Virus record (IMG/VR): IMGVR_UViG_3300048115_000173
Span: 1 to 40,311 of that record
From: a virus
DNA: 40,311 nt
Strand: one strand, 5' to 3'
Of this stretch, positions 2,888 to 38,568 are shown in pieces (position 1 is the first letter of the stretch; the number at the start of each line of letters is the position of its first letter). The notes below the pieces were generated by a model. The model was not told where the DNA came from. It saw only the letters and a list, made by a program, of their open reading frames with translations, and ran no database searches. A program made the translations under genes and the position numbers.

Positions 2888-5094
2888 GACTCACCCTTGC
2901 AGGAAACGAAATTGAACTCTACGAGAACGAGCCTGTCAACCTGAGCTATCAGTTCTCCGATATTCAGAATATCAACGCTTCATCAAGTAGCTTTTCGCAG
3001 ACCTTCCGCGTACCACTCACCAAGAAGAATCAGGATTACTTCGGGGCGGTGAATGAGTTCGGTCTTATTACGACATGGGATCCGAAGACTAAGGTGGACG
3101 CGGAACTCACTTACAACACGATCCCTGTCATGCGCGGCTTTGCTCAGGTGAAAGCGGTATACGTTCAGAAAGGCAAATATGCAGACGTTGAAATCGCGGT
3201 ATTCGGTGAGACGGCTAATCTCTCACGGGATATCGGGGACGGGATGCTCACTGACCTCAACTTGTCTTCTTACGATCACACGCTCAACGCTACGAATATA
3301 GAAGCGAGTTGGGCGGGTAATTTATCCAGCTCCGTAATACGTTACGGACTGCCTGACAAGGGTCAGAATTGGACCTCTTCCAACCTATGGACGGAAGACA
3401 ACCCACTCGAACACGGAGACTTCACGCCATACTTCCAAGCCTCGAAGTTATTTGAGGAGATAATGACAGCAGCAGGATATACCTACGACTCAACTTTCTT
3501 GAGTAGGATGAGCGATGTATATCTCGCTCTATACAACGGCAATTTGGCAATCAAGGGTAACAGAAACCCGCAAGCGCAAACGGCTTTTGTTGGGTATTCC
3601 GCAGACGTTACTGGGTTAAGCTCAATAACCTTTGCCAACCTGACCGGATTCTCTGAATCGGCTCCCTTTTACGATAGCGATAATAATTTCAACGGCACAA
3701 CATACACAGCACCTTTTCGCGCTTATTACACTTTTCGCGTTTATGTACATGGGGAAATTGACCACCTCACGAACACGACACTGACAATGCGACTCGCGAA
3801 AGGAGGCTCGACGTTTTTAGCGACTATCATCGACAACCTGACCGGAGCTTTTTTCAATGATGAGTCTTTCGTCGTTTTAACCGACCCCATTCTTTTGAAT
3901 CAAGGTGACGCAGTATCTCTTCAGTACGCTTTAGCCAACTCAGGTCACACGGTAGACTTTACCGGGACTAATCAACTGGGAGCGGGTGGAACAGGTTTTG
4001 AAGTTGTAGAGATATCCGGAGCAACGAGCGGACAAACAGTCGACGTTTCGGCCAATATGCCACAGATGAAACAAATCGATTTCATCTCAGGACTTCAGAA
4101 GATGTTCAATCTTGTATTCATTCCGGATCGTAACAATTCAAAACATCTCTCGGTTGAGCCGTTCAACGACTACATGAGCAGCGGAGCGCAGAAAGATTGG
4201 ACGAACAAGATTGACCTCTCGAAAGACATCACCATTGCACCCACGACAGACCTCCAAGCGAGGCAGTACGATTGGACGCATTCCAACGGGAAAGACCTTA
4301 TCAACGACATAGTGTTCAAAAACGCTTCTCGGGTCTATGGAAGATACCGAGTTGATGACCCAGAGAACGACTTCGCTTCAGGCAACAAAGAGATAAAGTC
4401 ACCCTTTGCGCCTCATGTCGTTTCATACATTCCCGGCACGCAGTACGCAGTTCATAGGATGTTGATTGATACGGAGCAGGACGATAAGACTATCAAAGAC
4501 CCGCTCCCGCGTTTGGCGTTTTGGAACGATCAACAGACGGGGACAATCTACTATCAGAACGATGACAATGATGATACCACTACAGACACTGAATATCCGG
4601 CTTTCTCGCAGTTCTCAGACCTTGAGGCAAGCGTATCAGATGAAGACCTCGGGTTCGGTGCGGAGCGTCCATTCCATATCGTAGAAGCCAACCCATTGAA
4701 TACCCTTTATTACACTTATTGGAGACCGTTCGTCAATGAGTTGTATTCCTCAGACGCTCGCAAGCTCACTGCGTTCTTCAGGCTCACACGCTCCGAATTA
4801 GCAACGTTCGAGTTCTCGGATAAGGTCTATATCAAAGACACGTATTGGAGGATTCTATCTATCTCCTATGACGCGACAAGTGAAGACCTCGTGAAGGTGG
4901 AACTTTTGAAAGTTTTGGGAGATATCCGCGACTGTCAATTCATCCCGTTTGGTATCGATAAGGCAGACGGGAAGATTCAATTCACCAACCTAAGCGGACA
5001 GACGGTCGTTCAGGTGACTCGCGTTTGCTGCGAGCGATACGGGTATTTCTATGATAACGCTTCATCCAACTGCTTCCAACCCTTTGAACAATGA
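2881..5094 (+). CDS. Large virion structural protein, 737 aa (baseplate/tail-hub-like)
   Basis: The 737-aa beta-rich protein begins with an IELYENEPVNLSYQFSDI-type segment followed by SFSQTFRVPLTKKN, a style seen in large structural proteins of Bacteroidetes phages and prophages. The last ~50 residues are Cys-rich (a Cys, then CC, then a final Cys near the end), which may form a metal- or disulfide-stabilised tip. It could play the role of the 798-aa protein of phage B, as both precede the lysis block or tape measure in their operons. No catalytic motif was seen, so the exact role is inferred. Confidence 0.55.
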   Translation: MLRLTLAGNEIELYENEPVNLSYQFSDIQNINASSSSFSQTFRVPLTKKNQDYFGAVNEFGLITTWDPKTKVDAELTYNTIPVMRGFAQVKAVYVQKGKYADVEIAVFGETANLSRDIGDGMLTDLNLSSYDHTLNATNIEASWAGNLSSSVIRYGLPDKGQNWTSSNLWTEDNPLEHGDFTPYFQASKLFEEIMTAAGYTYDSTFLSRMSDVYLALYNGNLAIKGNRNPQAQTAFVGYSADVTGLSSITFANLTGFSESAPFYDSDNNFNGTTYTAPFRAYYTFRVYVHGEIDHLTNTTLTMRLAKGGSTFLATIIDNLTGAFFNDESFVVLTDPILLNQGDAVSLQYALANSGHTVDFTGTNQLGAGGTGFEVVEISGATSGQTVDVSANMPQMKQIDFISGLQKMFNLVFIPDRNNSKHLSVEPFNDYMSSGAQKDWTNKIDLSKDITIAPTTDLQARQYDWTHSNGKDLINDIVFKNASRVYGRYRVDDPENDFASGNKEIKSPFAPHVVSYIPGTQYAVHRMLIDTEQDDKTIKDPLPRLAFWNDQQTGTIYYQNDDNDDTTTDTEYPAFSQFSDLEASVSDEDLGFGAERPFHIVEANPLNTLYYTYWRPFVNELYSSDARKLTAFFRLTRSELATFEFSDKVYIKDTYWRILSISYDATSEDLVKVELLKVLGDIRDCQFIPFGIDKADGKIQFTNLSGQTVVQVTRVCCERYGYFYDNASSNCFQPFEQ

Positions 5095-9410: not shown

Positions 9411-9926
9411 ATGGCTTGTACATTAACAATCAACGGCAGGGCGTTTCCCTGCAAAGATAAGATCGGGGGAATCAAGCGCGTTTGGATTAAACAATTCGCG
9501 TCGGATGACTGGGTAAAGACAGGTGGTGCGGTTTCCGCAAACGCTTCGGGAATTACGCTCCACGGTTTTGAGATTACCAAGAACAACGGATCACTCCAAC
9601 AGACGGTGAATGCCTCTGTTGAGAATGGAACTGTTTTCTACTCTCAGGTTCTCGAGTTCTCACTTCCCAACTTGACGGTTGGAGACAACCAAGAGGTGTC
9701 TGACTTACTTCGTAACCGCTTGACGGTTCTCGTTCAAGACGTCAACGATAATTATCTCGCGATGGGAGTCACAACAGGAGTTGAGGCAACAGGCGGGACG
9801 GTAGGAACGGGAACGGCAAAGGGTGACTTCAACGGCTATCAAATCCAATTGACAGCGGAAGAGGCTTCCCCGGCAGCGTTTGCAGACCCAACCGATACCA
9901 ACTTGACTTTGACGGCTGGTTCTTGA
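9411..9926 (+). CDS. Tail-tube-like virion structural protein
   Basis: A 171-aa protein beginning MACTLTINGRAFPCKDKIGGIKRVW. The early pair of cysteines with a KxxIGGIK pattern is a recurring N-terminus among structural proteins of Bacteroidetes phages. The rest is beta-rich with an Asn/Gly/Thr-rich end. It sits alone between two hairpins right after the capsid gene, which fits a second highly expressed virion protein. Tail tube is the likeliest role because no other tube candidate exists in phage A, but this is inferred from context. Confidence 0.55.
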   Translation: MACTLTINGRAFPCKDKIGGIKRVWIKQFASDDWVKTGGAVSANASGITLHGFEITKNNGSLQQTVNASVENGTVFYSQVLEFSLPNLTVGDNQEVSDLLRNRLTVLVQDVNDNYLAMGVTTGVEATGGTVGTGTAKGDFNGYQIQLTAEEASPAAFADPTDTNLTLTAGS

Positions 9927-9959
9927 TTTGATTTTCTTTGGTTAGATTATAAAGGACGG

Positions 9960-9984
9960 GGGAGGGCATATGCTCTCCCTTTTT
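9960..9984 (+). terminator. Rho-independent-type terminator
   Basis: GGGAG (9960-9964) pairs with CTCCC (9975-9979). The intervening GGCATATGCT can extend the stem by a G-T pair and GCA/TGC. Five T residues follow (9980-9984). It lies 33 bases after the tail-tube-like gene, and the next start lies 10 bases downstream, so partial readthrough into the portal genes is expected. Confidence 0.6.
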
Positions 9985-16054: not shown

Positions 16055-16335
16055 TCTGGACAAAGGCAGAAGACAAGAGGCTCGTTGAGCTTGTAAACCA
16101 ACACATCACAAAGGACAGCAAGCGACCCGTACAATGGAAAGAAATCAAGCCGATGGAGAACCACACGCTCGCAGCGATGCAGACGCGATTCTCAAAGCAT
16201 ATCCTTCCGTACTACGACTTCACCGGCAACCGATACACGCCAAAGAAGAAAGCAATGAAGAAGGTATCAACGAAGCGAATCAAAGTATCTCGCTCGTTCC
16301 TGTGGGGAGCGTTAAAGGTTACGCGATATGAATAA
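16051..16335 (+). CDS. Myb/SANT-like small DNA-binding protein
   Basis: A 94-aa basic protein. The N-terminal pattern WTKAEDKRLVELVNQH, then VQWKEIKPM and TLAAMQTRFSKHI, is the spaced-Trp three-helix layout of Myb/SANT-like domains. The tail is Lys-rich. It likely binds DNA as an early regulator or accessory replication factor. It overlaps genes on both sides, consistent with operon coupling. No clear counterpart was found in phage B. Confidence 0.55.
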   Translation: MIWTKAEDKRLVELVNQHITKDSKRPVQWKEIKPMENHTLAAMQTRFSKHILPYYDFTGNRYTPKKKAMKKVSTKRIKVSRSFLWGALKVTRYE

Positions 16336-16543
16336 TATCAAACTATTTTTAATCCGGAACTACGGATCGACTTCAACCGCTGCAATGGTTCTGGACGTTA
16401 CACCAAACACCGTTCGCAATTGGTGCGGGCGGATGCCGCGTAACATACTCAAGCACCTCCCGGAGATATCCGAAACTTGCGGAGCGACATACGCGGAGAT
16501 CGTCGAAGAGGTTCTATTGTGTGAAAGGGAGGGGATGGATTGA
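16328..16543 (+). CDS. Small helix-turn-helix protein (phage A)
   Basis: A 71-aa protein. STSTAAMVLDVTPNTVRNWCGRMP (about 14-37) is a typical helix-turn-helix, followed by NILKHLPEISE. The phage B protein at 37095 has the same layout (CADDLGVTRRTVENYCFRNP, then GILKHSGQI), and both lie just before the initiator gene. A regulator of replication-gene transcription is the natural guess, as a promoter overlaps its 3' end. Confidence 0.65.
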   Translation: MNNIKLFLIRNYGSTSTAAMVLDVTPNTVRNWCGRMPRNILKHLPEISETCGATYAEIVEEVLLCEREGMD

Positions 16544-16574: not shown

Positions 16575-17246
16575 ATGAACGGAATATGGATACCCCAGGA
16601 GATTTGGTTGTTGGATGACCTCTCTCCCATGCAAAGAATTCTCCTCTCTAAAATTCACGCGCTCAGTCACAAAGACGGGTCGTGTTGGGCGGGAGATGAC
16701 TTCCTCGCTGAGTCTCTTGGGGTCTCTTCTCAGTACATCCGTAAAATGCGGAAGGACCTTTGCGAGACTGCACACATCAAATGCGAAGGGTACGGTCACC
16801 GAAGGAAGATGACGGTTCTTGTAGAAGCAACTATCGGAACAAGCAACTATCGGAACAAGCAACAATCGTTGCAAGAAGAAGCAACTATCGTTGCAAAAGT
16901 TGCAACTACTGTTGCAAAAGAAGCAACTACAGTTGCGCAGAGTATAGAGAAGAGTAAAGAGAAGAGTAAAGAAGTAGTGAAGAGAGTACGTTTCAAGGAA
17001 CCGAGTTTGGAAGAAGCGATGCATTCGTTCGAACTTGCGGGATCATCTCGCGACGAAGGCGAGAAGTTTTGGAACTACTACGAATCAAACGGATGGAAGG
17101 CGGGCAAAAACAAAATGAAGAACTGGCAAGCCTCCGCCCGAAATTGGATAAAACGATCAAATGAATTTACAACGAACAAAACAGGAGCTGCAAAGCAACC
17201 AAGCAAAAACCAGCTTGAAGACTATCTCAAGCACGGGACTATTTAA
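16575..17246 (+). CDS. Replication initiator-like protein with intragenic iterons (phage A)
   Basis: A 223-aa protein. Residues ~1-85 form a winged-helix-like domain (IWIPQEIWLLDDLSPMQRIL, then DDFLAESLGVSSQYIRKMRKDL) of the type at the N-terminus of phage replication initiators. The middle (about 88-122) is a repetitive Ala/Thr/Val linker encoded by the iterons. The C-terminal part (about 137-205, FWNYYESNGWKAGKNKMKNWQASARNWI) is a common module of such initiators. It matches the phage B protein at 37825 in layout. Like lambda O, it probably binds its own iterons and recruits the replisome. Confidence 0.75.
   Translation: MNGIWIPQEIWLLDDLSPMQRILLSKIHALSHKDGSCWAGDDFLAESLGVSSQYIRKMRKDLCETAHIKCEGYGHRRKMTVLVEATIGTSNYRNKQQSLQEEATIVAKVATTVAKEATTVAQSIEKSKEKSKEVVKRVRFKEPSLEEAMHSFELAGSSRDEGEKFWNYYESNGWKAGKNKMKNWQASARNWIKRSNEFTTNKTGAAKQPSKNQLEDYLKHGTI
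16827..16936 (+). repeat. Iteron array inside the initiator gene: candidate origin (phage A)
   Basis: Four 14-bp palindromes of form GCAAC-N4-GTTGC start at 16859, 16881, 16902 and 16923 (spacing 22, 21, 21, about two helical turns each). Two imperfect half-sites, GCAACTATCGGAAC, precede them at 16827 and 16843. The following ~55 bases are almost purely purine on this strand (AGAGTATAGAGAAGAG-like). Iterons next to an asymmetric A-rich tract inside an initiator gene is the layout of the lambda origin. Confidence 0.75.
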
Positions 17247-17727
17247 ACAAACTAACGAGCAAGCGTGGGAAGGAACAAACATCCAAACCGCCTTACGGCA
17301 CCATCCCGAAGAGACGCGGGCAACGGTAGTTACGCTCATCAATAAGACGGTCCAATTTATAGACGCAAAGAAGACCCTTCACTCATTCGAGGATATGGCA
17401 CTTTGCGCAGAAACTATCTTCGACGTCTTCCCTGTTTTGAAACTCGAGGAATTGAGGCTAATTTGCGAGAGGATGAAACAAGGGTACTACGGCAACTTCT
17501 TTGAACGTTTGAAGATACAGGAGTTCCGCGACTGCATCATCAAGCATGAAGAAGAACGAGCCTCAATCCTTGAGCAACGACACAAGACAATCAGTCGAGG
17601 AGCGCAAGACCCAACGAACGTCCCTGAGTACGATCCCGAACAAGCACGCTTGCAATGGCGCATGAAGAACAACCCCTATATCATACCGGGAAAGAATGAC
17701 AGTAGCGAAAGCAAAAGCGAAGCTTGA
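17161..17727 (+). CDS. Conserved initiator-partner protein, unknown (phage A)
   Basis: A 188-aa protein with GTNIQTALRHHPEETRATVV, an INKTVQFIDAKKTL segment and EELRLICERMKQGYYGNFFERLKIQEF, the last closely matching the phage B protein at 38495 (YYERLKLAQFVDC). It overlaps the initiator gene by 86 bases, so expression is coupled. Position after an initiator suggests a helicase-loader or replication accessory role, but no Walker motif is present, so it is not a DnaC-type ATPase. Confidence 0.65.
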   Translation: MNLQRTKQELQSNQAKTSLKTISSTGLFKQTNEQAWEGTNIQTALRHHPEETRATVVTLINKTVQFIDAKKTLHSFEDMALCAETIFDVFPVLKLEELRLICERMKQGYYGNFFERLKIQEFRDCIIKHEEERASILEQRHKTISRGAQDPTNVPEYDPEQARLQWRMKNNPYIIPGKNDSSESKSEA

Positions 17728-18903: not shown

Positions 18904-19103
18904 GCTTCACAGCAACAGAACGGGAGATCATAGCGGAGAACATCCGCCAATTCCTCAAACAAGACCAGAAAGAGAAGTTCGAACACCAGCACTTCGGAGG
19001 AGATCCCTTCCTCGTGAAGCGTGTTCTTCCCATTACACAATACGACAAAGAGACCCTGGAGAATATTGCACGGGATGTCGAAGGTAGAATCTTACACCCA
19101 TGA
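18900..19103 (+). CDS. Small acidic/basic helical protein, 67 aa
   Basis: It starts in an ATGA overlap and ends in an ATGA overlap with the methyltransferase gene. It is charged and helical (TEREIIAENIRQFLKQDQKE), with HQHFGGDPFLVKRVLPITQY in the middle. No family was recognised. The location suggests that it is co-made with the methyltransferase. Confidence 0.6.
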   Translation: MSFTATEREIIAENIRQFLKQDQKEKFEHQHFGGDPFLVKRVLPITQYDKETLENIARDVEGRILHP

Positions 19104-20050
19104 CTCATGGCTCACTTTTCTCAGGAATCGGAGGCTTTGATCTCGCGGCTGAATGGTCAGGGTATACCAACCTCTTTAACTGCGAGTGGGAAGAATTCCC
19201 TCGCAAAGTCCTCAAACACCACTTCCCCAATGCAGAACAATTCGGAGACATCAAAGAATTCAACGCGACAGCTTACTCTGGAAGACTTGATATCCTCTCT
19301 GGAGGGTTCCCCTGTCAACCGTTCAGCGTTGCAGGAAAACGGAAAGGCTCAGAGGATGAACGCCACCTGTGGCCGCAGATGCTTAGAGTTATCGGAGAGT
19401 GTCAACCCCGTTGGGTCGTGGGAGAGAACGTTCGCGGGCTTGTTAGTTGGTCGGACGGATTGGTACTCGAAGAGGTGTACTCTGACTTGGAAGCTCTCGG
19501 GTACTCCGTCCAATCGTTTATTATTCCAGCTTGTGCCACGAACGCTCCCCACAGACGCGACAGAGTTTGGATTGTTGCTCACTCCGACAACTTCGGAACC
19601 CGTTCACGACTTGGAGAAATTCAAAGCGAGAATGGAGAAGTATCCGAATGGAACAACGATGCCAAACTTAGCGACACAGATTCACGGAATGCTCCCGACA
19701 CCGACAGCGGTAGATGCAAAAGGAGCATACCGACCGGAGTCTATGATAAGCAAAAACGGAAAATTCGACAGGACGGAGAGGCTATCAAATATATATCTCA
19801 AGACTGGAACGGAGTACAATTCGAAAACTTCCCAACTGTCCCCCCTATTTGTAGAGGAGATGATGGGCTTCCCAAAGAACTGGACGGCATTACCTTTCCA
19901 AAGTGGCGAAGAGAATCCATCAAAGCATACGGAAACGCAATAGTTCCTCAAGTCGCACACCGTATATTTGAATCAATTAAAGACTATGAGAAACGCAAGA
20001 AAAGCCCTCCTCCATGCGAAGAACTTCCTTCTCATCACGGAGAACGATAA
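19100..20050 (+). CDS. dcm: C5-cytosine DNA methyltransferase
   Basis: A 316-aa enzyme with motif I FSGIGGFD (7-14), motif IV GGFPCQPFS with catalytic Cys72, motif VI ENV (109-111), motif VIII HRRDRVW (151-157) and motif X AYGNAIVPQ (276-284). It methylates the C5 of cytosine in a short target that cannot be read from the sequence. No cognate restriction enzyme is nearby, so protection against host restriction is the likely role. About 88% of the gene is open in a second frame (see next entry). Confidence 0.9.
   Translation: MTHGSLFSGIGGFDLAAEWSGYTNLFNCEWEEFPRKVLKHHFPNAEQFGDIKEFNATAYSGRLDILSGGFPCQPFSVAGKRKGSEDERHLWPQMLRVIGECQPRWVVGENVRGLVSWSDGLVLEEVYSDLEALGYSVQSFIIPACATNAPHRRDRVWIVAHSDNFGTRSRLGEIQSENGEVSEWNNDAKLSDTDSRNAPDTDSGRCKRSIPTGVYDKQKRKIRQDGEAIKYISQDWNGVQFENFPTVPPICRGDDGLPKELDGITFPKWRRESIKAYGNAIVPQVAHRIFESIKDYEKRKKSPPPCEELPSHHGER
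19107..19943 (+). CDS. Overprinted ORF within the methyltransferase gene, 278 aa
   Basis: In the +1 frame of the methyltransferase there are 278 codons without a stop. The product carries blocks that I recognise from proteins found in phages next to C5 methylases: WERTFAGLLVG (105-115), WYSKRCTLTWKL (119-130), LLTPT and LPTPTAVDAKG (157-206), and LSPLFVEEMMGFPKNWT (244-260). Such blocks would not appear by chance in a shadow frame, so both frames probably encode protein. Its function is unknown, perhaps a partner of the methylase. The start at 19107 is the first ATG in the frame and the N-terminus is uncertain. Confidence 0.6.
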   Translation: MAHFSQESEALISRLNGQGIPTSLTASGKNSLAKSSNTTSPMQNNSETSKNSTRQLTLEDLISSLEGSPVNRSALQENGKAQRMNATCGRRCLELSESVNPVGSWERTFAGLLVGRTDWYSKRCTLTWKLSGTPSNRLLFQLVPRTLPTDATEFGLLLTPTTSEPVHDLEKFKARMEKYPNGTTMPNLATQIHGMLPTPTAVDAKGAYRPESMISKNGKFDRTERLSNIYLKTGTEYNSKTSQLSPLFVEEMMGFPKNWTALPFQSGEENPSKHTETQ

Positions 20051-20207
20051 AGCAATCCGACTCCATGCCGGGGACGATCCCGCGACTTTACTTCTAACCT
20101 TAGCCGTTCATAACGATGAATTCAGATACACCCTCGAAGCCGTCCTCGATCAAGCCAATGAAACTCTCGGGGATAAGGGAGAATCCCCGGAATCCGAGGA
20201 CGATTAA
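19986..20207 (+). CDS. Small helical protein, 73 aa, unknown
   Basis: It reads MRNARKALLHAKNFLLITENDKAI, then a helical middle and an acidic end (GESPESEDD). It overlaps the methyltransferase end by 65 bases and the next gene by 50. The ATG at 19986 is preferred to an upstream TTG. I recognise the kALLHA start as a recurrent small-protein type in Bacteroidetes phages, without known function. Confidence 0.55.
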   Translation: MRNARKALLHAKNFLLITENDKAIRLHAGDDPATLLLTLAVHNDEFRYTLEAVLDQANETLGDKGESPESEDD

Positions 20208-20562
20208 AGAGGAGAGGTTCGACAAGCTCGTTCAATCCATTCGAGAGTTCCCCGAGATGCTCCAAGCGCGACCCATTGTTGTCAACCCCGACATGGTTAT
20301 AATCGGAGGGAACATGAGATTCAAAGCGTGCAAAGCAGCGGGACTCACCGAGGCACCCGTCTATGTCGCTACATGGGGAGAACTCAAAGACCGAGAGTTC
20401 ACGATAAAGGACAACACGAACGCAGGAGAACACGACATGGACATCCTCGCGAACGAATGGGATGCAACCGAATTGAATGACTGGATGCTTAACGTATGGG
20501 ACCCCCAAGAGGAACCCGAAGAGAAAGAAGAAAAAGTCAAATGCGAATTATGCGGTAAGTAA
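20158..20562 (+). CDS. ParB-like nuclease-domain protein
   Basis: A 134-aa protein. RENPRNPRTIKEERFDKLVQSI, RPIVVNPDMVIIGGNMRFKACKAAG and a later TIKDNTNAGEHDMD are the ParB N-terminal domain pattern (GGNMR corresponds to the GxxR nucleotide box). The MKLS start at 20158 matches the usual beginning of phage members, while a start at 20116 would deepen the overlap. The C-terminus has CELCGK. Such proteins are common just before phage terminase genes. CTPase or nuclease activity is possible but not shown. Confidence 0.75.
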   Translation: MKLSGIRENPRNPRTIKEERFDKLVQSIREFPEMLQARPIVVNPDMVIIGGNMRFKACKAAGLTEAPVYVATWGELKDREFTIKDNTNAGEHDMDILANEWDATELNDWMLNVWDPQEEPEEKEEKVKCELCGK

Positions 20563-20906
20563 TGGAAGCACTACAACTTGACAAAACTGACACTAAAAAA
20601 GGATTGATGCTCGAGGCTCTCGAGAAGTCGCTCGGTATCGTATCAACGGCTTGCAAGATGGTTGACATCTCAAGGCAGACCCATTACGCATGGCTAAAGG
20701 CAGACGAGGAATATAAGAAAGCGGTCAACTCAATCCAGGACGGTGTTCTTGACTTCGCAGAATCGCACCTCTACAAACTCGTAAAGGAAGGCAACCCAGC
20801 AGCGACGATCTTCTTCTTGAAGACCAAAGGCAAGAAGCGCGGATATATCGAACGGCAAGAGATAGAGGTTCAAGAGAAGAAGCCGCTCTCATGGTTGGAT
20901 GAATAA
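20562..20906 (+). CDS. terS: Terminase small subunit
   Basis: A 114-aa helical protein. GIVSTACKMVDISRQTHYAWLKADEEYKKAV is a helix-turn-helix of the type that small terminases use to bind the packaging site, followed by GVLDFAESHLYKLVKEGNPAATIFFLKTKGKKRGY, a typical oligomerisation/C-terminal part. It starts in a TAATG overlap with the ParB-like gene. It is separated from terL by a 330-base promoter-gene-terminator cassette. Confidence 0.8.
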   Translation: MEALQLDKTDTKKGLMLEALEKSLGIVSTACKMVDISRQTHYAWLKADEEYKKAVNSIQDGVLDFAESHLYKLVKEGNPAATIFFLKTKGKKRGYIERQEIEVQEKKPLSWLDE

Positions 20907-20924
20907 ATTTTTTTCGCTTTATAG

Positions 20925-20954
20925 TTGCATAACGAAAAAACTTGCGTATCTTTA
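20925..20954 (+). promoter_or_regulatory. Early-type promoter of cassette 1 (between terS and terL)
   Basis: TTG (20925-20927), 19-base spacer with CATAACGAAA and CTTGCG, then TATCTTTA (20947-20954). It matches the early operon promoters in both spacer length and the TTGCGTATCTTT core. An in-frame ATG at 20959 would be at or before the transcription start, so the real start must be the ATG at 20983. Confidence 0.85.
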
Positions 20955-20982
20955 CACCATGACAAACGCAAACAACACTACC

Positions 20983-21204
20983 ATGAACGCTCAACAACTA
21001 CACGGCCGATTCGTAAACGTAACAGGCAAGGGATTCGGTGAAGTAATTGATTTTGTAATCGACGGAGGCGACTACAACACCAACATCGTCGAGCTTGTAA
21101 CCATTCTAACCGCAGACGGTCGCAACATTGTTGCAGCTCCTAAGTCTTGCAATGTTATGACTTACAACGAATACCAAGACTTCTGCGAATTGGCAGGAGT
21201 TTAA
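20983..21204 (+). CDS. Cassette 1 (moron-like) protein, 73 aa
   Basis: It reads MNAQQLHGRFVNVTGKGFGEV, IDFVIDGGDYNTNIVELVTI and ends NEYQDFCELAGV, a small soluble alpha/beta-looking protein of unknown family. The start is set by the promoter position. The leader AAACAACACTACC before the ATG matches the leader of the phage B gene at 34708. It has its own promoter and terminator and interrupts the terS-terL pair, the definition of a moron. An early anti-defence or host-modifying role is inference. Confidence 0.75.
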   Translation: MNAQQLHGRFVNVTGKGFGEVIDFVIDGGDYNTNIVELVTILTADGRNIVAAPKSCNVMTYNEYQDFCELAGV

Positions 21205-21211
21205 TTTAAAC

Positions 21212-21232
21212 GCCCCTTCGGGGGCTTTTTTT
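21212..21232 (+). terminator. Rho-independent terminator of cassette 1
   Basis: GCCCC (21212-21216), TTCG tetraloop, GGGGC (21221-21225), then seven T. A stable UUCG hairpin directly before the large terminase start, so terL must be reached by readthrough or by another signal. Confidence 0.9.
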
Positions 21233-21237
21233 ATACC

Positions 21238-22398
21238 TTGCAAACGGTGCAACTCCCCGCGACATATTACCACGTTAAAGAATGCAAGTCGAAGATTCAA
21301 ATCCACCAGGGCGGGACACGATCCGGGAAGACGTACTCCATCCTCACGGCACTCATTGAGCTTTGTCATAAGAACTCGGGTCTTGTTGTCACCATATGCC
21401 GAAAGACATTCCCCGCACTTCGAGCCACCGCGATGAGAGACTTCTTCGAGATACTCAACAACGAGGACATCTATAACCCCGACCTCCACAACAAGAGCGA
21501 TGCAACCTATCAACTGTGGGGGAATATGGTTGAGTTCATCAGCATCGACCAACCGCAGAAGGTCAGAGGACGCAAGCGAGACGTTCTATTCATAAACGAA
21601 GCCAACGAGATCAATCTCGAAGATTGGCGGCAACTCCTCCTCAGAACAACGGGGAGGGTTCTTTTAGACTATAACCCATCAGACGAATTCCACTGGATCT
21701 ATGAAGAAGTCATCCCACGAGAAGACGCAGAGTTCTTCCGCACCACGTACAAAGACAACCCGTTCCTCCCTGAAAGTGTGGTCATGGAAATTGAGCGGTT
21801 TAAAACAGCAGACGAGAACTTTTGGAAAGTATACGGTCTCGGTGAACGAGGAACGTCACAATCAACCATCTTCACCCACTGGAAAGAAATAAACCAAATA
21901 CCAAATGAATTCAAACTCCTCAACATCGGATTGGACTTCGGATATACAAACGACCCAACAGCCATCGTCCGAGTCTATACAGACGGACACGGATTTGCAG
22001 TCGACGAACTCTGCTACGCGACAAGACTCACTAATTCGGATATTGCAAAAGTCCTCCGAGATAATCAAGTCGATAGATCGGATGTTGTTATCTGTGACTC
22101 CGCTGAGCCAAAGAGCATCGACGAGATACACGCTCACGGATTCAATACTCACGGAGCAAGAAAGGGAAAGGATAGCGTCAAAAATGGAATCCAGTTCCTC
22201 CATTCGCGACCGCTTCTTGTCACGGCTCGGAGTGTAAATCTTATCCGCGAACTCAGAAACTACAAATGGAAGGAAGACAAGAACGGGAAGCAACTCAATG
22301 AACCCGTAGACAAATTCAACCACGCCATCGACGCGATGAGGTACGCGATCACATTCAACCAAACGAACCCGAACTTCGGCTCTTATGCTATCGGATAG
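21238..22398 (+). CDS. terL: Terminase large subunit
   Basis: A 386-aa packaging motor. ATPase: Walker A GGTRSGKT (25-32) and Walker B VLFINEAN (116-123). Nuclease: GLDFGYTNDPTA with Asp233, CDSAEPKSIDEI with Asp287, and a HAIDAMRYA end with a third acidic residue. No suitable ATG exists at the 5' end. TTG at 21238 or GTG at 21247 must serve, only a few bases after the cassette terminator. The original start may have been altered when the cassette was inserted. The terminase is complete. Confidence 0.9.
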   Translation: MQTVQLPATYYHVKECKSKIQIHQGGTRSGKTYSILTALIELCHKNSGLVVTICRKTFPALRATAMRDFFEILNNEDIYNPDLHNKSDATYQLWGNMVEFISIDQPQKVRGRKRDVLFINEANEINLEDWRQLLLRTTGRVLLDYNPSDEFHWIYEEVIPREDAEFFRTTYKDNPFLPESVVMEIERFKTADENFWKVYGLGERGTSQSTIFTHWKEINQIPNEFKLLNIGLDFGYTNDPTAIVRVYTDGHGFAVDELCYATRLTNSDIAKVLRDNQVDRSDVVICDSAEPKSIDEIHAHGFNTHGARKGKDSVKNGIQFLHSRPLLVTARSVNLIRELRNYKWKEDKNGKQLNEPVDKFNHAIDAMRYAITFNQTNPNFGSYAIG

Positions 22399-22431: not shown

Positions 22432-22461
22432 TTGGATAACGAAAAGAATTGCGTATCTTAG
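22432..22461 (+). promoter_or_regulatory. Early-type promoter of cassette 2 (after terL)
   Basis: TTG (22432-22434), 19-base spacer GATAACGAAAAGAATTGCG, then TATCTTAG (22454-22461), one base off TAnnTTTG. It carries the same TTGCGTATCTT core and is followed by a CAAACAAACGAAAC-type leader without Shine-Dalgarno to the ATG at 22486. Confidence 0.8.
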
Positions 22462-22485
22462 CCAAACAAACGAAACAAACAGATA

Positions 22486-22755
22486 ATGAACTACTCAATC
22501 CAACAACTACAAGACCTTGATTCTCAGCTAGTTATAAGCGGTAATTCAACTTCAATTGATTACATTCAGGGAGGTAAATACGTAATCGAAGGCATATTCA
22601 ACCCAGCTCAGGCAATTGTAAAGTATCGAGATTGGCTAGTTGTTTTAGAAGATTGCGGAAACGGTTTTGAAGCAATAAGCGCACGCAACACAATGACAGG
22701 AACAGAATACAGTAACCCGCTGCAATGGTTTTCAAATAAAGTCATTCAAGAATAA
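22486..22755 (+). CDS. Cassette 2 (moron-like) protein, 89 aa
   Basis: It begins MNYSIQQLQDLDSQLVISG and contains YIQGGKYVIEG, IVKYRDWLVVLEDCGNGFE and MTGTEYSNP. It is a close homologue (most residues identical) of the first early gene of phage B at 34708, although here it is an isolated unit after terL with its own promoter and terminator. No known domain. The compact beta-like core and early promoter suggest a small early-acting protein, perhaps anti-defence (inference). Confidence 0.8.
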   Translation: MNYSIQQLQDLDSQLVISGNSTSIDYIQGGKYVIEGIFNPAQAIVKYRDWLVVLEDCGNGFEAISARNTMTGTEYSNPLQWFSNKVIQE

Positions 22756-23560: not shown

Positions 23561-26500
23561 ATGATCACGTTCAATAACATCGTAGAAAGGTTTGAAGACT
23601 TCGCGACGAGTCACTTCTTCATAAAGTCATTCTCGTTCGGTTCTCCGGATGACGTAGACCTCGCAAAGTTTACCGAGTTCCCTCTCATGCATTTGGTTTA
23701 TACCGGGGCAACCTATGACAGCGGAACGAAGACTTACAATATCGAGGTTTATATCCTTGACGTACCCGCAGACAAGAGCGATAAAGTAGAACGACAGCGC
23801 GAGGTCGTATCCGATGCGGAGCAATGCGCGGAAGACATTATCGCAGATATCCGGATGGGTGGGAATATCTTCACCTTTGCCCAAGATTATGAAGTCGTAA
23901 ACGCGACAACAACCCCACTCGAAGAAGAGACGAAGAACGTGCTCTCGGGTGTGCTGCTTGATTTGTCAGTTGCTATCCCTTACGAGTGGGACGCTTGCAA
24001 TGCTCCCATTGATGGGGTAACTCCTGGAGGCGGTGACGAGCCGTCCTACGCGAGACGCGGCTTCTTACGTATGTTGACGCTCGACGGATCAACCGATGTC
24101 CTCAGCGTTCGCACGATCAAAGTAAACAACGGCACTCTCACCGATGATGGAGAAGGCGTGGTCACTTTGGACACGGGCGGAGTTGATACGCTAGCAGCTC
24201 TCACCGATGTAACTCTCGCGAACCTTGAGAATCACGATGTTTTAAAATACAACAGCGGACAAACGCGGTGGGAGAATGTCGATTGGCTTCTTATTCTTTA
24301 CACCGAACTAAAGCAAGGCACAACCACGACCCAAAACAACGGAAGCAGAACAGACAGCGCACTCGAGTTAACGGTCACACAAGCCAAACTGAAAGCAGGA
24401 ATCACGGGCGTAGAAATCACGGAGACAAGCCCAGGAGATATTGATCTCATAGTTGCAACGGATGCATCAGGTTCGACAGCTTACACGGCTATCAACATAG
24501 ACGGATCGAAAACTGCAAACGAGGCAGATATCAATCTATACGGCAACGTATACATCCACGATGAAGGGAACGGGACAAAGGCTCGAATGCGTCTCAATAG
24601 CGCGGACAATGTAAACCTCAGCCTCCCCACCTCATCAGGGACTTTAGCACTTACGGACGATATCCCAAGCGCCCCCGTTGACTCGGTGAACGGACAGACA
24701 GGCGTAGTGGTCTTGGTTACGACAGATATTGACGAGGGTACGAATCTTTACTATACAGAGGCACGGGTTGCAGCGAATGCAGCTGTCGTAGCGAATACGG
24801 CAAAGGTTGGAATAACAACACAACAAGCCGCAGATATAACCGCCAACAACGCGAAGACAGGCATCACACCCACGCAAGCGAGCGAGATAACAGCCAACAC
24901 CGCGAAAGTTGGAATCACGACCCAACAAGCGGACGATATCACCGCAAACAATGCAAAGGTCGGGATCACTCAAACCCAAGCCGATGACATCACAGCGAAC
25001 AACGCCAAGACAGGAATCACCCCGACTCAAGCGGGAGAGATAACCGCGAACACGGCAAAAGTGGGAGTCATTGCGGGAGGTACTTCGGGACAAGCTCTTG
25101 TAAAGGCAAGCGGCACGGACTACGACCTCGAATGGGCAGACGCTGCAAGCGGGGTTCAATACCACGAACGCTTTGCAACAGATGCGGAGACCTTCCGAAG
25201 CGGTGCAACAGATACGGTAGAACTTTACTACACCGCTAAAGCGGACGGAGACGGACTCGCAGAGAGCGCAAGCAGCGACACCCCAACAGCGGGCAAGGTC
25301 ATCAAGAGGAAGATATATTACTCAGAGGCTGCGTTCGCAGATCCCGACACGGGTACATGGGTTGAGTTTACGACCCTCGCGGACGATATTACTTTCGCTA
25401 ATGCAAAGGCGGCTCTTTTGGAATATCTGAAAGCGAGGACGGGCGGCACGGTTCCAATCAGCCTCAAGCAAACGTGGGAGGAGGTGAGCGATACCGCGTA
25501 TCTTTTGGACGAAACTTTTGGTTCAGGTGCGGAGGCAGCGTATTCGACGCGGCAACTTCGATTTGCTCAAACCGATTGCATGGTCATTCGCAGAGCATCG
25601 GATAGCACTACCACCACAATTGGCTTTGACGGTTCAGGCAACATCTCGGAGGCAGATATAGAAACGTTCTGCACGGGTACAAGCTGCACGGTAAGCGAGT
25701 GGAAAGACCAAAGCGGAAACGGGAACGATGCGACTGCGGCAGCACCATCTAACGAACCGACAATTTACACGGGTGGCGCGTTGGTGAAGGATGGAGGGCG
25801 CGTAGCTTTTACTTCAACAGCGTCCACCTCTTTTGACTTCACTCAAATCTCAAACGTCAATAGTGTTTTTTCTGTATTAAGACCTACCGACTTTACAAAT
25901 AGTAACTCGAGTTTTATCCTCGGGGATAGTACAAATTTCGATTATCATAGTGGCAATTCAGCTGAGTGGTTGAGCGCAACTCACGCTGACCCCGTGGTGA
26001 GAAACGGCGATAATTATTTAAATGGTTTAAGCGTTAACCTTACGACTTTGGCAAGAAGCGCAGGGCAATATGTTTTAAGTATGATTCACACAGATGGCAC
26101 AGCCGTAGCTAGTAGAATAAGTAAAGACCGTTTTTTGACTAGAAGCTGGGTCGGTAACCGCCAAGAATTAATAATTTATTCAGACGATAGAACGAACGAC
26201 CGCACAGGCATCGAAAGCAACATGGGCGATTACTTCACCCAAAACACGCCACTGCTCGACACGTACAGCGGTGCAGCGGCTGCGTATTCATTGAGGCTTT
26301 TGGATTCAACGTATACGGGTGACGCGATAGAGGTTTACAACGGATCGAGCTACGCGGATATTGGCTTCAACGTATTCGGTGAATTGGATACTGTCGCACT
26401 CGCAGCGCATTGCGGGTCGAATGACGGGTTGGTATCAAAGTGGTACGACCAATCATCGAACTCGAATACGGCAGCGCAAACGGTCACCAGTAAAATGCCA

Positions 26501-26992
26501 AGGATTTACGACGGCAGCACGGGCGTGGTGACGGAGAACGGCAAGCCAGCGGTGGAGATTGACCGTTCAGAATATTTGTCATTTAATTCAAGAATTTACA
26601 CTGCAAGAACAATGGTTGCAGTATTGAACATGACTGCCTTTCAATATAACAGAGTTTGCGGTAATAGCGTAGAAATTGAGTCAGGTATCAAAGGGTGGTC
26701 GGACGGAGGCGGTCTAGATGATGTAAACGAGAAGTTTAATATAAACGCCGTGTCTGTGAATGGAGCGCTTGACACGACTAGACCATATGGCAGCGACATG
26801 ATTGGCTTGTATAATTGCAGCTATTTTACTGGCGATGGCGTAGACTCGGATGGACTTGGTGAAATTGGCTGGCACGTTAATAATCGAAGCCTAAAAGGTA
26901 ACTTGCAAGAACTCATAGTATACCCTGTAGAAGACACAGTTAACCGCACTGACATCGAGGACAACATCAACACTTTTTACGACATCTACTGA
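23561..26992 (+). CDS. Tail fibre/receptor-binding protein, 1143 aa
   Basis: Residues ~1-160 (ERFEDFATSHFFIKSFSFG, YNIEVYILDVPADK) look like a tail-completion-type structural domain that in related phages I recall as a separate protein. Residues 409-502 are 17-aa repeats. Residues ~655-890 and ~900-1143 are two tandem concanavalin-like domains with the ArabFuran-type signature: AYSTRQLRF (661) with WKDQSGNGNDAT (714), and AYSLRLLDS (908) with WYDQSSNSNTA (961). They likely bind cell-surface glycans. The last 104 codons recur at the window start. The next gene overlaps the stop (TGATG). Confidence 0.8.
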   Translation: MITFNNIVERFEDFATSHFFIKSFSFGSPDDVDLAKFTEFPLMHLVYTGATYDSGTKTYNIEVYILDVPADKSDKVERQREVVSDAEQCAEDIIADIRMGGNIFTFAQDYEVVNATTTPLEEETKNVLSGVLLDLSVAIPYEWDACNAPIDGVTPGGGDEPSYARRGFLRMLTLDGSTDVLSVRTIKVNNGTLTDDGEGVVTLDTGGVDTLAALTDVTLANLENHDVLKYNSGQTRWENVDWLLILYTELKQGTTTTQNNGSRTDSALELTVTQAKLKAGITGVEITETSPGDIDLIVATDASGSTAYTAINIDGSKTANEADINLYGNVYIHDEGNGTKARMRLNSADNVNLSLPTSSGTLALTDDIPSAPVDSVNGQTGVVVLVTTDIDEGTNLYYTEARVAANAAVVANTAKVGITTQQAADITANNAKTGITPTQASEITANTAKVGITTQQADDITANNAKVGITQTQADDITANNAKTGITPTQAGEITANTAKVGVIAGGTSGQALVKASGTDYDLEWADAASGVQYHERFATDAETFRSGATDTVELYYTAKADGDGLAESASSDTPTAGKVIKRKIYYSEAAFADPDTGTWVEFTTLADDITFANAKAALLEYLKARTGGTVPISLKQTWEEVSDTAYLLDETFGSGAEAAYSTRQLRFAQTDCMVIRRASDSTTTTIGFDGSGNISEADIETFCTGTSCTVSEWKDQSGNGNDATAAAPSNEPTIYTGGALVKDGGRVAFTSTASTSFDFTQISNVNSVFSVLRPTDFTNSNSSFILGDSTNFDYHSGNSAEWLSATHADPVVRNGDNYLNGLSVNLTTLARSAGQYVLSMIHTDGTAVASRISKDRFLTRSWVGNRQELIIYSDDRTNDRTGIESNMGDYFTQNTPLLDTYSGAAAAYSLRLLDSTYTGDAIEVYNGSSYADIGFNVFGELDTVALAAHCGSNDGLVSKWYDQSSNSNTAAQTVTSKMPRIYDGSTGVVTENGKPAVEIDRSEYLSFNSRIYTARTMVAVLNMTAFQYNRVCGNSVEIESGIKGWSDGGGLDDVNEKFNINAVSVNGALDTTRPYGSDMIGLYNCSYFTGDGVDSDGLGEIGWHVNNRSLKGNLQELIVYPVEDTVNRTDIEDNINTFYDIY
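24785..25066 (+). repeat. 51-bp (17-aa) tandem repeats in the fibre gene
   Basis: Five full units and one partial unit of 51 bp encode ITAN(T/N)AK(V/T)GIT(T/P/Q)(Q/T)QA(D/S/G)(D/E), starting at 24785, 24836, 24887, 24938, 24989 and 25040. Codons vary while the peptide is kept, so selection is on the protein. Such repeats form an extended trimeric coiled-coil shaft in phage fibres. Confidence 0.85.
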
Positions 26993-27393
26993 TGAACGGA
27001 TTTATCATAGTCCTACCAACGGACACGCAGACAAGCGAGCGCAGAGCGTACCAAATAACGCGCGAACTATACAACATAAGCCGACCCGTTTTGATACAGG
27101 CAGAAGGCGAAGCAGCCTCGACCGTGTTCGGGATTGTAGTACACCCTGACGGAGTACAGAACGCGCTGCAAGTGGATACCGATTACCTTATCAACGTACA
27201 CCCTGCTGCAAACCTCGAACGCCTTGTTGCTTGCTTCCCTGAGCTGTCAAACGATGAGCGGTATTCCCTCAGTAGTTACGTGCAAGTGAATCAGCGGTTC
27301 CCTTTCGGGCATATCGTGCCAAGCGATACGACGATCCGAACACAGGAGTACATGGAGGAAAACGGGTGGTTTACTGATCAACCTGAAATTGAT
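26679..27393 (+). repeat. Second copy of the 715-base segment at the window start
   Basis: Bases 1-715 align here without a gap at a constant offset of 26678. The fibre part differs by only a few bases. The 133-aa gene has increasing differences, and similarity ends at its stop codon. The sequences following the two copies (716 onward and 27397 onward) are unrelated. This marks the phage A/phage B boundary. Confidence 0.95.
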
Positions 27394-34648: not shown

Positions 34649-34678
34649 TTGCGTAACGAAATAAGTTGCGTATCTTTG
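34649..34678 (+). promoter_or_regulatory. Bacteroidetes-type early promoter (phage B operon)
   Basis: TTG (34649-34651), a 19-base spacer and TATCTTTG (34671-34678). The last 20 bases are identical to the phage A promoter. An in-frame ATG at 34666 lies inside the promoter, so translation must begin at the ATG at 34708, behind a CAAACAAACAACACTACC leader. Confidence 0.9.
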
Positions 34679-34707
34679 ACTCAGTCAAACAAACAAACAA
34701 CACTACC

Positions 34708-34971
34708 ATGAATTACTCAATCCAACAACTTCAAGACCTTGACGATAAGTTAGTTATAAGTGGTGATTCAACTTCAATTGACTACATTCAAGGCGGTAAA
34801 TACGTTATGGAAGGCGTATTGAAACCAGCTCAAGCAATTGTGAAGTATCGAGATTGGTTAGTTGTTTTAGAAGATTGCGGAAACGGTTTTGAACCAATAA
34901 GCGCACGCAACACAATGACAGGAACAGAGTACAATAACCCAATGCAATGGTTTTCAAATAAAGTAAAATGA
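34708..34971 (+). CDS. First early gene of phage B, 87 aa, unknown
   Basis: It begins MNYSIQQLQDLDDKLVISG and is closely similar over its whole length to the cassette 2 protein at 22486 in phage A. It is the first gene after the early promoter and is coupled (ATGA-type overlap) to a tiny acidic ORF. No known domain. High conservation between otherwise diverged phages, and two genomic contexts, suggest that it is valuable and mobile. Confidence 0.8.
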   Translation: MNYSIQQLQDLDDKLVISGDSTSIDYIQGGKYVMEGVLKPAQAIVKYRDWLVVLEDCGNGFEPISARNTMTGTEYNNPMQWFSNKVK

Positions 34972-37319: not shown

Positions 37320-37828
37320 TATGGCAAAAGCTTACAACCGATGAAATGGCCTTTGCATACGAAACAGGCAAGGACGTCATACAGGCAAAAATGAAAAACA
37401 ATCATACAGGCAACAATGAACTCAGTAAGTATGCTGGTTACGTTGGTCAGGTCGCAGCAATGAAGTACCTAAAGGCGGTAAACATTGACGATTATGAGTA
37501 TGATTTGGAGCGCAATGGCAAACGCATAGAAGTAAAAACAAAGGTGCGGAACAGACTACCCGATCCGAATTTTGCGGCTTGTGTTTATGCATCAAATGCG
37601 GATCAGCTTTGTGACGTGTATTTGTTTATGCAGGTAATGAAACGCGCAGACAACCCAAAAAAGTTAATGCACGGCGCTTACTTGCTTGGGTGGATTGATC
37701 GCGGCCTGTATAATGAACGGTTTTACCAAGTGCGTAAAGGTGATAAAGACGGCAAATATTACACAGAGCCAGCCGACGCGTTTAAAATTGAGCTGCGTGA
37801 TTTACGCCCAATTGACGAGCTAAAATGA
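37316..37828 (+). CDS. PD-(D/E)XK-like nuclease
   Basis: A 170-aa protein. GYVGQVAAMKYL, then DYEYDLERNGKRIEVKTKVRN with Asp63 and Glu72-Val-Lys74, is the core of a PD-(D/E)XK restriction-endonuclease-like fold. It may process recombination or replication intermediates or act as an endonuclease on host DNA. It is coupled by ATGA overlap to the initiator gene. No equivalent was seen in phage A. Confidence 0.65.
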   Translation: MIWQKLTTDEMAFAYETGKDVIQAKMKNNHTGNNELSKYAGYVGQVAAMKYLKAVNIDDYEYDLERNGKRIEVKTKVRNRLPDPNFAACVYASNADQLCDVYLFMQVMKRADNPKKLMHGAYLLGWIDRGLYNERFYQVRKGDKDGKYYTEPADAFKIELRDLRPIDELK

Positions 37829-38568
37829 AGCGTAAAGGCATATACATACCGCTGGAGTTGTGGAATCTTGGCGAGTTGCATCCTAATGAACGGGTGTTGC
37901 TTGCTGAGGTTGCCAGCTTTGAGGACAAGAACAAACCATGCTTTGCAGGAAACGAACACTTTGCCCAACTGCTTAACGTATCAACGGCCACGGCACGGGG
38001 CTATATTTCCAAGCTTGTAAACGCTGGTTTTCTAGTCCGAGAGGGTGACAGATACAACAGACGACTGCGTAGATTAGCGCAAACGAGTGCGCAGAATAGC
38101 GCAGACGAGTGCGTAGATTCACGCAGACGAGTGCGTAAATCCGCGCAAACGAGTGCGCAGAATTCAGCACATACTATATCAACTACTATATCAACTACTA
38201 ATACATCTACTAATAGTGCAAAAGTGTTGAATGTTGTTTTGCCGTTTCAATCGGAAAAATTTGAGGCGGCATGGAACGAATGGAAAGAGTACAAACAAAC
38301 AGACCACAGATTCAAATACAAATCCCACAAAAGCGAACAACGGGCACTAATCAAACTACAAAATGAACACACCAACGAAAACGACGCAATCGACGCAATT
38401 CATACAGCAATTGCAAACGGATGGAAAGGCTTGGTATTTAACTCACCCAAAGGCGGGGGAGCTAACAAGCGGCGAGCGGATAACCTTGAAAGAGATGTCA
38501 ACCGCGAAAAGCTTGCAGAATTTGCAAGAACTGGACGTATCACGCCTGACGGTGGAAACGTGCTTTAA
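37825..38568 (+). CDS. Replication initiator-like protein with intragenic iterons (phage B)
   Basis: A 247-aa protein. Winged-helix-like N-terminus (IYIPLELWNLGELHPNERVL, HFAQLLNVSTATARGYISKL), a low-complexity linker (about 78-130) encoded by the iterons and an A+T-rich stretch, and a C-terminal domain with EAWNEWKEYKQTDHRFKYKS and AIHTAIANGWKGLVF. Same layout as the phage A initiator at 16575 although sequence identity is low. Expected to bind the iterons and start replication. Its 3' end overlaps the partner gene. Confidence 0.75.
   Translation: MKRKGIYIPLELWNLGELHPNERVLLAEVASFEDKNKPCFAGNEHFAQLLNVSTATARGYISKLVNAGFLVREGDRYNRRLRRLAQTSAQNSADECVDSRRRVRKSAQTSAQNSAHTISTTISTTNTSTNSAKVLNVVLPFQSEKFEAAWNEWKEYKQTDHRFKYKSHKSEQRALIKLQNEHTNENDAIDAIHTAIANGWKGLVFNSPKGGGANKRRADNLERDVNREKLAEFARTGRITPDGGNVL
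38055..38158 (+). repeat. 22-bp iteron array inside the initiator gene: candidate origin (phage B)
   Basis: Four 16-bp units of form (G/A)CGCA(A/G)ACGAGTGCG(C/T) start at 38077, 38099, 38121 and 38143, exactly 22 bp apart. A degenerate fifth unit is in phase at 38055. Most have inverted arms GCGCA/TGCG(C/T). Because 22 is not a multiple of 3, the same DNA is read in different frames in successive units, so DNA sites, not a peptide, are conserved. An A+T-rich tract with repeated CTATATCAACTA follows at about 38172-38220. Confidence 0.8.

Follow-up and report, generated by a model that had tools for sequence, protein, structure and literature searches.

Replication origins that lie inside the gene of their own initiator are already known from lambda, SPP1, and RepA_N plasmids, and the natural exchange of an HTH_36 domain together with an origin is known from pPR9. 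In ori-lambda, gene O contains inverted-repeat iterons to which dimers of O bind, and on supercoiled DNA these dimers open the A+T-rich 40 bp next to the iterons (PMC5043065, PMC7466680). The oriL of SPP1 consists of initiator-binding repeats inside gene 38 and an adjoining A+T-rich region (PMC6316719). The N-terminal domain of the pSK41 initiator binds four boxes inside rep, the linker that the origin encodes is dispensable, and the C-terminal domain contacts DnaG (PMC5703833). The pPR9/pUSA03-type hybrid has its HTH_36 domain and origin replaced as a cassette of ~500 bp in a near-identical backbone, and the mini-replicon replicates (PMC5703833). No description of the origins of the phage group studied in this work was found in open-access papers. 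We propose that an array of iterons and the A+T-rich tract behind it form the replication origin of phage A inside its own initiator gene and that the iterons are bound by the winged helix of the initiator. The probability of this reading is estimated at roughly 0.88.

The window is the whole stretch of DNA that was analysed, which is the IMG/VR virus record IMGVR_UViG_3300048115_000173 of 40,311 nt. Positions 1-709 are 91% identical to positions 26679-27387, and phage A was taken as ~1-26678 because of this repeat. Judged by its sequence, the record is two related phages that have been joined. Phage A (~26.7 kb) is nearly complete and is joined to a part of phage B through a common tail-fibre end. 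The junction is probably an assembly chimera and possibly a recombinant. The sequence of the relative G002 is closed through a 127-bp repeat at its ends, and its 26,445 bases are close to the size of phage A. The nearest cultured relatives of the terminase infect Flavobacterium (43%). The group consists of uncultured marine phages whose hosts are probably Bacteroidota. The genome collection that was searched for prophages and hosts gave a single weak match of the C-terminal part, in Methylophaga, and no host was assigned on it. Flavobacterium phage fF4 was considered as a cultured model and was rejected; it has a DUF6633-like gene in common, but the preceding gene lacks both a winged helix and repeats.

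Most of the two genomes in the record differ. A small gene is present in both phages (22437-22742 and 34654-34964) with 86% DNA identity, which may reflect recent exchange or strong conservation. The long tail-fibre-like gene of phage A (23561-26992) contains 51-bp tandem repeats at 24806-25052 that encode ITANNAKxGIT repeats. The DNA cytosine methyltransferase-like gene at 19100-20050 has no DNA match at this place in G001, G002, G003, G005, and G007 (gap ~19103-19986).

The features of the initiator loci are shown in Table 1. The initiator of phage A matches HTH_36 (PF13730) in Pfam with an E-value of 7.1e-6 and 26.2 bits, which is above the cut-off of 25. The PHROG matches are phrog_270 (replication initiation protein, 1.5e-10) and phrog_391 (O-like, 2e-4). 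In the AlphaFold model, confidence is high for the winged helix but not for residues 88-138, which are predicted to be disordered and roughly match what the array (codons 85-121) and the tract behind it encode. The C-terminal domain is common to several Vibrio phage proteins. The encoded linker seems to carry little protein information; with its predicted disorder, this would leave the DNA there free to be shaped by the origin.

Table 1. Features of the initiator loci of phages A and B, in positions of the window.
Feature	Position	Strand	Remarks
Initiator gene, 223 aa	16575..17246	+	HTH_36 winged helix, disordered linker, C-terminal helical domain
Winged-helix DNA-binding domain, coding part	16596..16817	+	residues ~8-81; AlphaFold pLDDT mostly 75-92; winged-helix matches in PDB
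Site S1, GCAACTATCGGAAC, half-site	16827..16840	+	full palindrome in L031-L033, L036-L039, L042
Site S2, GCAACTATCGGAAC, half-site	16843..16856	+	in no relative a full palindrome
Iteron S3, GCAACAATCGTTGC	16859..16872	+	
Iteron S4, GCAACTATCGTTGC	16881..16894	+	
Iteron S5, GCAACTACTGTTGC	16902..16915	+	
Iteron S6, GCAACTACAGTTGC	16923..16936	+	
Candidate unwinding element, purine-biased, 12-bp repeats	16939..16988	+	12-bp period; low predicted stability
C-terminal domain, coding part	17001..17162	+	residues ~143-196; PHROG 15768/28809; exchangeable module
Overlapping downstream gene, DUF6633-like (weak)	17161..17727	+	DUF6633 0.0016, below cut-off; PHROG 35728
Phage B initiator gene (counterpart)	37825..38568	+	HTH_36 2.2e-6; N-terminal domain 31% identity to phage A
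Phage B iterons, 22-bp period	38061..38161	+	TGCG-N8-CGCA at 38066, 38088, 38110, 38132 and a degenerate fifth
Phage B A+T-rich tract, 12-bp repeats	38172..38215	+	second least stable window of the phage B part

The exact palindrome GCAACNNNNGTTGC (GCAAC-N4-GTTGC) occurs four times in the initiator gene, between the winged-helix part and the C-terminal part, and no further exact copies occur in the 40,311 bases of the window. The first-pass annotation had described four palindromes spaced 22, 21, and 21 bp and two half-sites in the linker of an initiator-like gene, and all of them were located as described, with the half-sites at 16-bp steps (16, 16) ahead of the palindromes. The annotation had also placed the palindromes on one helical face, which fits their 21-22 bp spacing (two turns of 10.5 bp). 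S1 is in phase as well, 32 bp upstream, and S2 lies 16 bp upstream on the opposite face. Across the relatives, S2 stays a half-site at 16-bp steps, whereas S1 is a full palindrome in several of them. The search for DnaA boxes and IHF sites near the array gave only matches with one mismatch, none of them convincing.

The tract behind the array is 61% A+T with a 12-bp period, and it is 83% purine instead of purine-only as had been annotated. By nearest-neighbour energies, its predicted stability falls within the lowest 0.36% of the 50-bp windows in phage A. The equivalent tract ranks first in G008, second in G007 and in the phage B part, and fifth in G003, and it lies outside the eight least stable windows in G001, G002, G005, and G010. 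The tract in phage B relatives mostly has a 12-bp repeat period. The tract units of L104 and L107 (TACTAAGTCA and TACTAAACCA) are spaced 11, 13 and 11, 13, 11, and this tract seems to be selected as DNA across the frame because these spacings are not multiples of three.

The ori in gene O of lambda, which has counterparts in other lambdoid phages, resembles the locus of phage A in three respects. Both carry four interrupted palindromes in phase midway along the initiator gene (spacing 20, 24, 23 and frames 0, 2, 2, 1 in lambda), both then have an A+T-rich purine-biased tract (0.73 A+T and 0.71 purine in lambda), and both have an overlapping next gene. However, the phage A initiator has no Phage_rep_O (PF04492) match, whereas lambda O itself scores 123 bits, and hhalign of the family against lambda O gave a probability of 0.1%. 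Phage A also differs in its iteron sequence, in the extra half-sites at 16-bp spacing, in the 12-bp repeats of the tract, and in a next gene that is not recognisably lambda P.

The RepA_N plasmids such as pSK41 are similar to phage A in having a winged-helix N-terminal domain, an in-gene origin that codes for the linker, and a separate C-terminal domain. The N-terminal domains of plasmid initiators are among the fold matches of the phage A N-terminal domain (4pql with Z 9.3 and 4pt7 with Z 8.8), where they tie with many other winged helices. The differences are that the phage A initiator has no RepA_N match (Pfam hits at E 0.1) and that pSK41 is controlled by a plasmid antisense RNA and is not part of a phage operon. 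The N-terminal domain of the phage A initiator belongs to the same Pfam family as that of pPR9 (PF13730). However, pPR9 is a plasmid from Gram-positive hosts, and its C-terminal domain is of the RepA_N type. SPP1 shares the initiator repeats within a phage initiator gene beside an A+T-rich region, and it differs in having a second origin, its own loader and DnaB-type helicase, and direct repeats instead of palindromes.

The proposed origin would work through the following steps. The N-terminal winged helix of the initiator would bind the GCAAC-N4-GTTGC iterons, with each palindrome probably taking one dimer. Since the iterons are two helical turns apart, the dimers would align on one helical face and form a nucleoprotein core. 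The strain from this core would melt the adjoining A+T-rich tract of 12-bp repeats. The C-terminal domain, together with host proteins or perhaps the product of the downstream gene, would then recruit the replicative helicase of the host. The cumulative GC skew, which the first-pass annotation had put forward as a check on the origin, has no extreme at the array in the circularised phage A, where the raw minimum is at 4,794 and the detrended minimum at 25,032. We judged the GC skew to be uninformative as an origin marker here because it nets only +144 over 26,678 bases and because close relatives have their extremes at differing places.

The product of the downstream gene is a candidate for a partner such as a helicase loader. 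This role is a guess since the product has no recognisable relative of known function and the gene stays in place when the C-terminal domain is swapped. No similarity in sequence to lambda P was detected, and the idea of a lambda P homologue was dropped, as a lambda P chain came up only at E 5.8, which is noise. No relative was found among solved structures, where the model has low confidence and the fold search is weak. A pairing of the C-terminus with the downstream gene in the manner of lambda O and P was likewise not supported. In L035-L039, a C-terminal domain of the phage B type replaces that of the initiator just behind the tract, yet the downstream gene is still of the phage A type, and such a pairing is therefore not evident.

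The initiator genes of phages A and B correspond as had been annotated, with 31% identity in the N-terminal part and HTH_36 in both. The phage B repeats occupy the equivalent linker of its initiator. The palindromic form of the phage A repeats had been called distinct from phage B, which was not borne out, as the phage B repeats are interrupted palindromes too (TGCG-N8-CGCA every 22 bp). The fifth arm position of the repeat varies among phage B relatives, and other phage B relatives carry quite different repeats (GGGTGGGCGCAAACGGACAG, GGGTGGTACAAACGTAACAG, and GTAGCGTGGACGCGAC).

The comparison of phage B with L096 gave identities of 45% for the winged helix, 41% for the linker DNA, 93% for the C-terminus, and 95% for the next gene. 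The comparison of L087 with L111 gave 23%, 36%, 92%, and 98% for the same parts. The winged helix and the array are exchanged as one cassette in these phage B relatives (L096 and L111), within near-identical backgrounds. The converse swap is exhibited by the pairs L031/L036 and L021/L035, which have 88-90% identity in the winged helix, 80-84% in the linker DNA, and 24% in the C-terminus. These sequences are most simply read as a winged helix that recognises the repeats adjacent to it. The sole swap seen in phage A itself is that of the C-terminus, and the pairing of its winged helix with its array is therefore inferred by kinship.

The array is nearly confined to initiator genes. The IMG/VR scan for two adjacent palindromes 21-22 bp apart identified 78 stretches. 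Phage-A-like initiators account for 62 of them, and two more (L190 and L195) are in truncated relatives. The remaining stretches look mostly like chance or peptide repeats. L201 has GGCAACCACAGTTGCC-type palindromes at 9851-9980, and the linker that contains them belongs to a true member of the lambda O family (Phage_rep_O 7.2e-15). The core of these palindromes is nearly the same as that of phage A, which may reflect shared recognition or convergence. L062 (ORF 369-506) and L064 (ORF 278-364) have initiators with 22-23-bp tandem arrays in the linker; the L062 initiator has a Lin1244 N-terminal domain and a 15-bp A-rich repeat after the array. In-gene iterons may be general.

A rival reading takes the array as an operator, in which the sites would bind the initiator or a neighbouring Cro-like protein and only regulate the transcription of the replication genes, with the origin elsewhere. 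Winged helices are common repressor folds, a gene at 16328-16543 has a weak match to P22 Cro, and the two-turn spacing of the palindromes also suits cooperative repressors. However, the array lies deep in the coding sequence (codons 85-121) and not at the start of an operon, with the A+T-rich tract behind it, each array type is found with a given winged helix encoded by the same gene and moves with it, and the window has no perfect copies elsewhere. We consider a purely regulatory array unlikely, and autoregulation on top of origin function is possible.

The array was also compared across 66 related loci that were drawn from viral contigs. It is present in 40 of the 66, down to ~50% amino-acid identity. 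The array-bearing loci are L001-L020 (88-96% identity), L021-L034 (~66%), L035-L039 (~50%), and L042, which is cut by the contig end. The spacing of the sites is 16, 16, 22, 21, 21 in the closest relatives, 16, 16, 21, 21, 22 in most others, and 16, 16, 21, 22, 21 in L031-L033. In some loci (L014-L020), the form GCAAC..GGCGC, a product of decay, stands in place of one of the four palindromes.

This decay is relevant to an element that acts in RNA, where mRNA hairpins would control either the initiator or the overlapping downstream gene at the level of translation or stability. The transcript does fold better than 200 of 200 shuffles (z -2.7), and the two genes overlap where the initiator gene ends, but a hairpin is expected from any DNA palindrome. 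The arms decay to GCAAC..GGCGC or GCAAC..GGAAC in several relatives without compensation, and a C-A mismatch is present in the TGCGC..ACGCA of some phage B relatives. The two-turn spacing is also held, which RNA does not need. An RNA-level element is thus quite improbable, somewhat more so than an operator.

Chance is excluded as the source of the four palindromes. Synonymous recoding at the codon usage of the phage, with the protein fixed, gave four palindromes in 0 of 20,000 trials with a maximum of 3, and shuffling the synonymous codons of the gene itself gave four in 2 of 20,000. The linker DNA of the window is 0.81-0.88 identical to five remoter representatives, whereas its amino acids are 0.41-0.57 identical. 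The winged helix exhibits the reverse against the same representatives, with 0.66-0.75 for DNA and 0.75-0.80 for amino acids. Among 813 windows of 37 codons from 20 phage A genes compared with G007, the six in which DNA identity most exceeds protein identity all come from the initiator linker, where the maximum excess is +0.45 against an all-window mean of -0.02 (SD 0.10). Within the closest clade, third positions vary less in the palindrome arms than in other places, although not significantly (P ~0.10). On these comparisons, we regard the repeats as selected as DNA and not as protein.

The remaining reading at the protein level takes the array as a VATTVAKE-like peptide repeat whose codons happen to form palindromes. 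Three of the copies in the window do share one frame (ATIVAK, ATTVAK, and ATTVAQ), and an in-frame VATTVAP repeat in L158 does form such palindromes. This reading is contradicted by the sites, which fall in all three frames, and by S4 and S5, whose frame differs between clades. The two sites are read in another frame and their peptide changes because the one extra base of the spacing occupies different gaps in different clades, as in the counterparts EEATIVAKVATTVAKEATTVAQ and KKQQSLQKKQPQLQLEATTVAH. The peptide diverges and the DNA does not, the synonymous-codon null fails, and the linker is predicted to be disordered, which leaves a peptide repeat with a negligible probability. A packaging (pac/cos), plasmid-like partition, or recombination site is just as improbable, since, although a ParB-like gene (20116-20562) and terminase genes (20562-22398) are present and inverted repeats can serve such roles, the terminase genes are 3.6 kb away from the array, the array type travels with the initiator winged helix, and other families of initiator genes have arrays as well.

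The findings in this work support the lambda-like origin that had been annotated inside the initiator gene, as the DNA is conserved against the frame, the winged helix and the array are exchanged together, and the array occurs almost only in initiator genes. We tentatively consider a further possibility, which we regard as rather doubtful, that the origin consists of two DNA codes written across the frame, namely the iterons and an A+T-rich tract of 10-12-bp repeats that the initiator or loader would read as single strands. If so, the tract, the iterons, and the winged helix would form a freely exchanged specificity cassette, and the position of the origin and the specificity of the initiator would be readable directly from phage metagenomes.

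The likely origin has been located for a group of uncultured marine phages. The comparison also offers a test for in-gene origins that uses sequence only, in which the DNA is better conserved than the encoded peptide and the repeats drift across the frame. The natural swaps match winged helices to their iterons and so provide a data set for DNA recognition by HTH_36 initiators.
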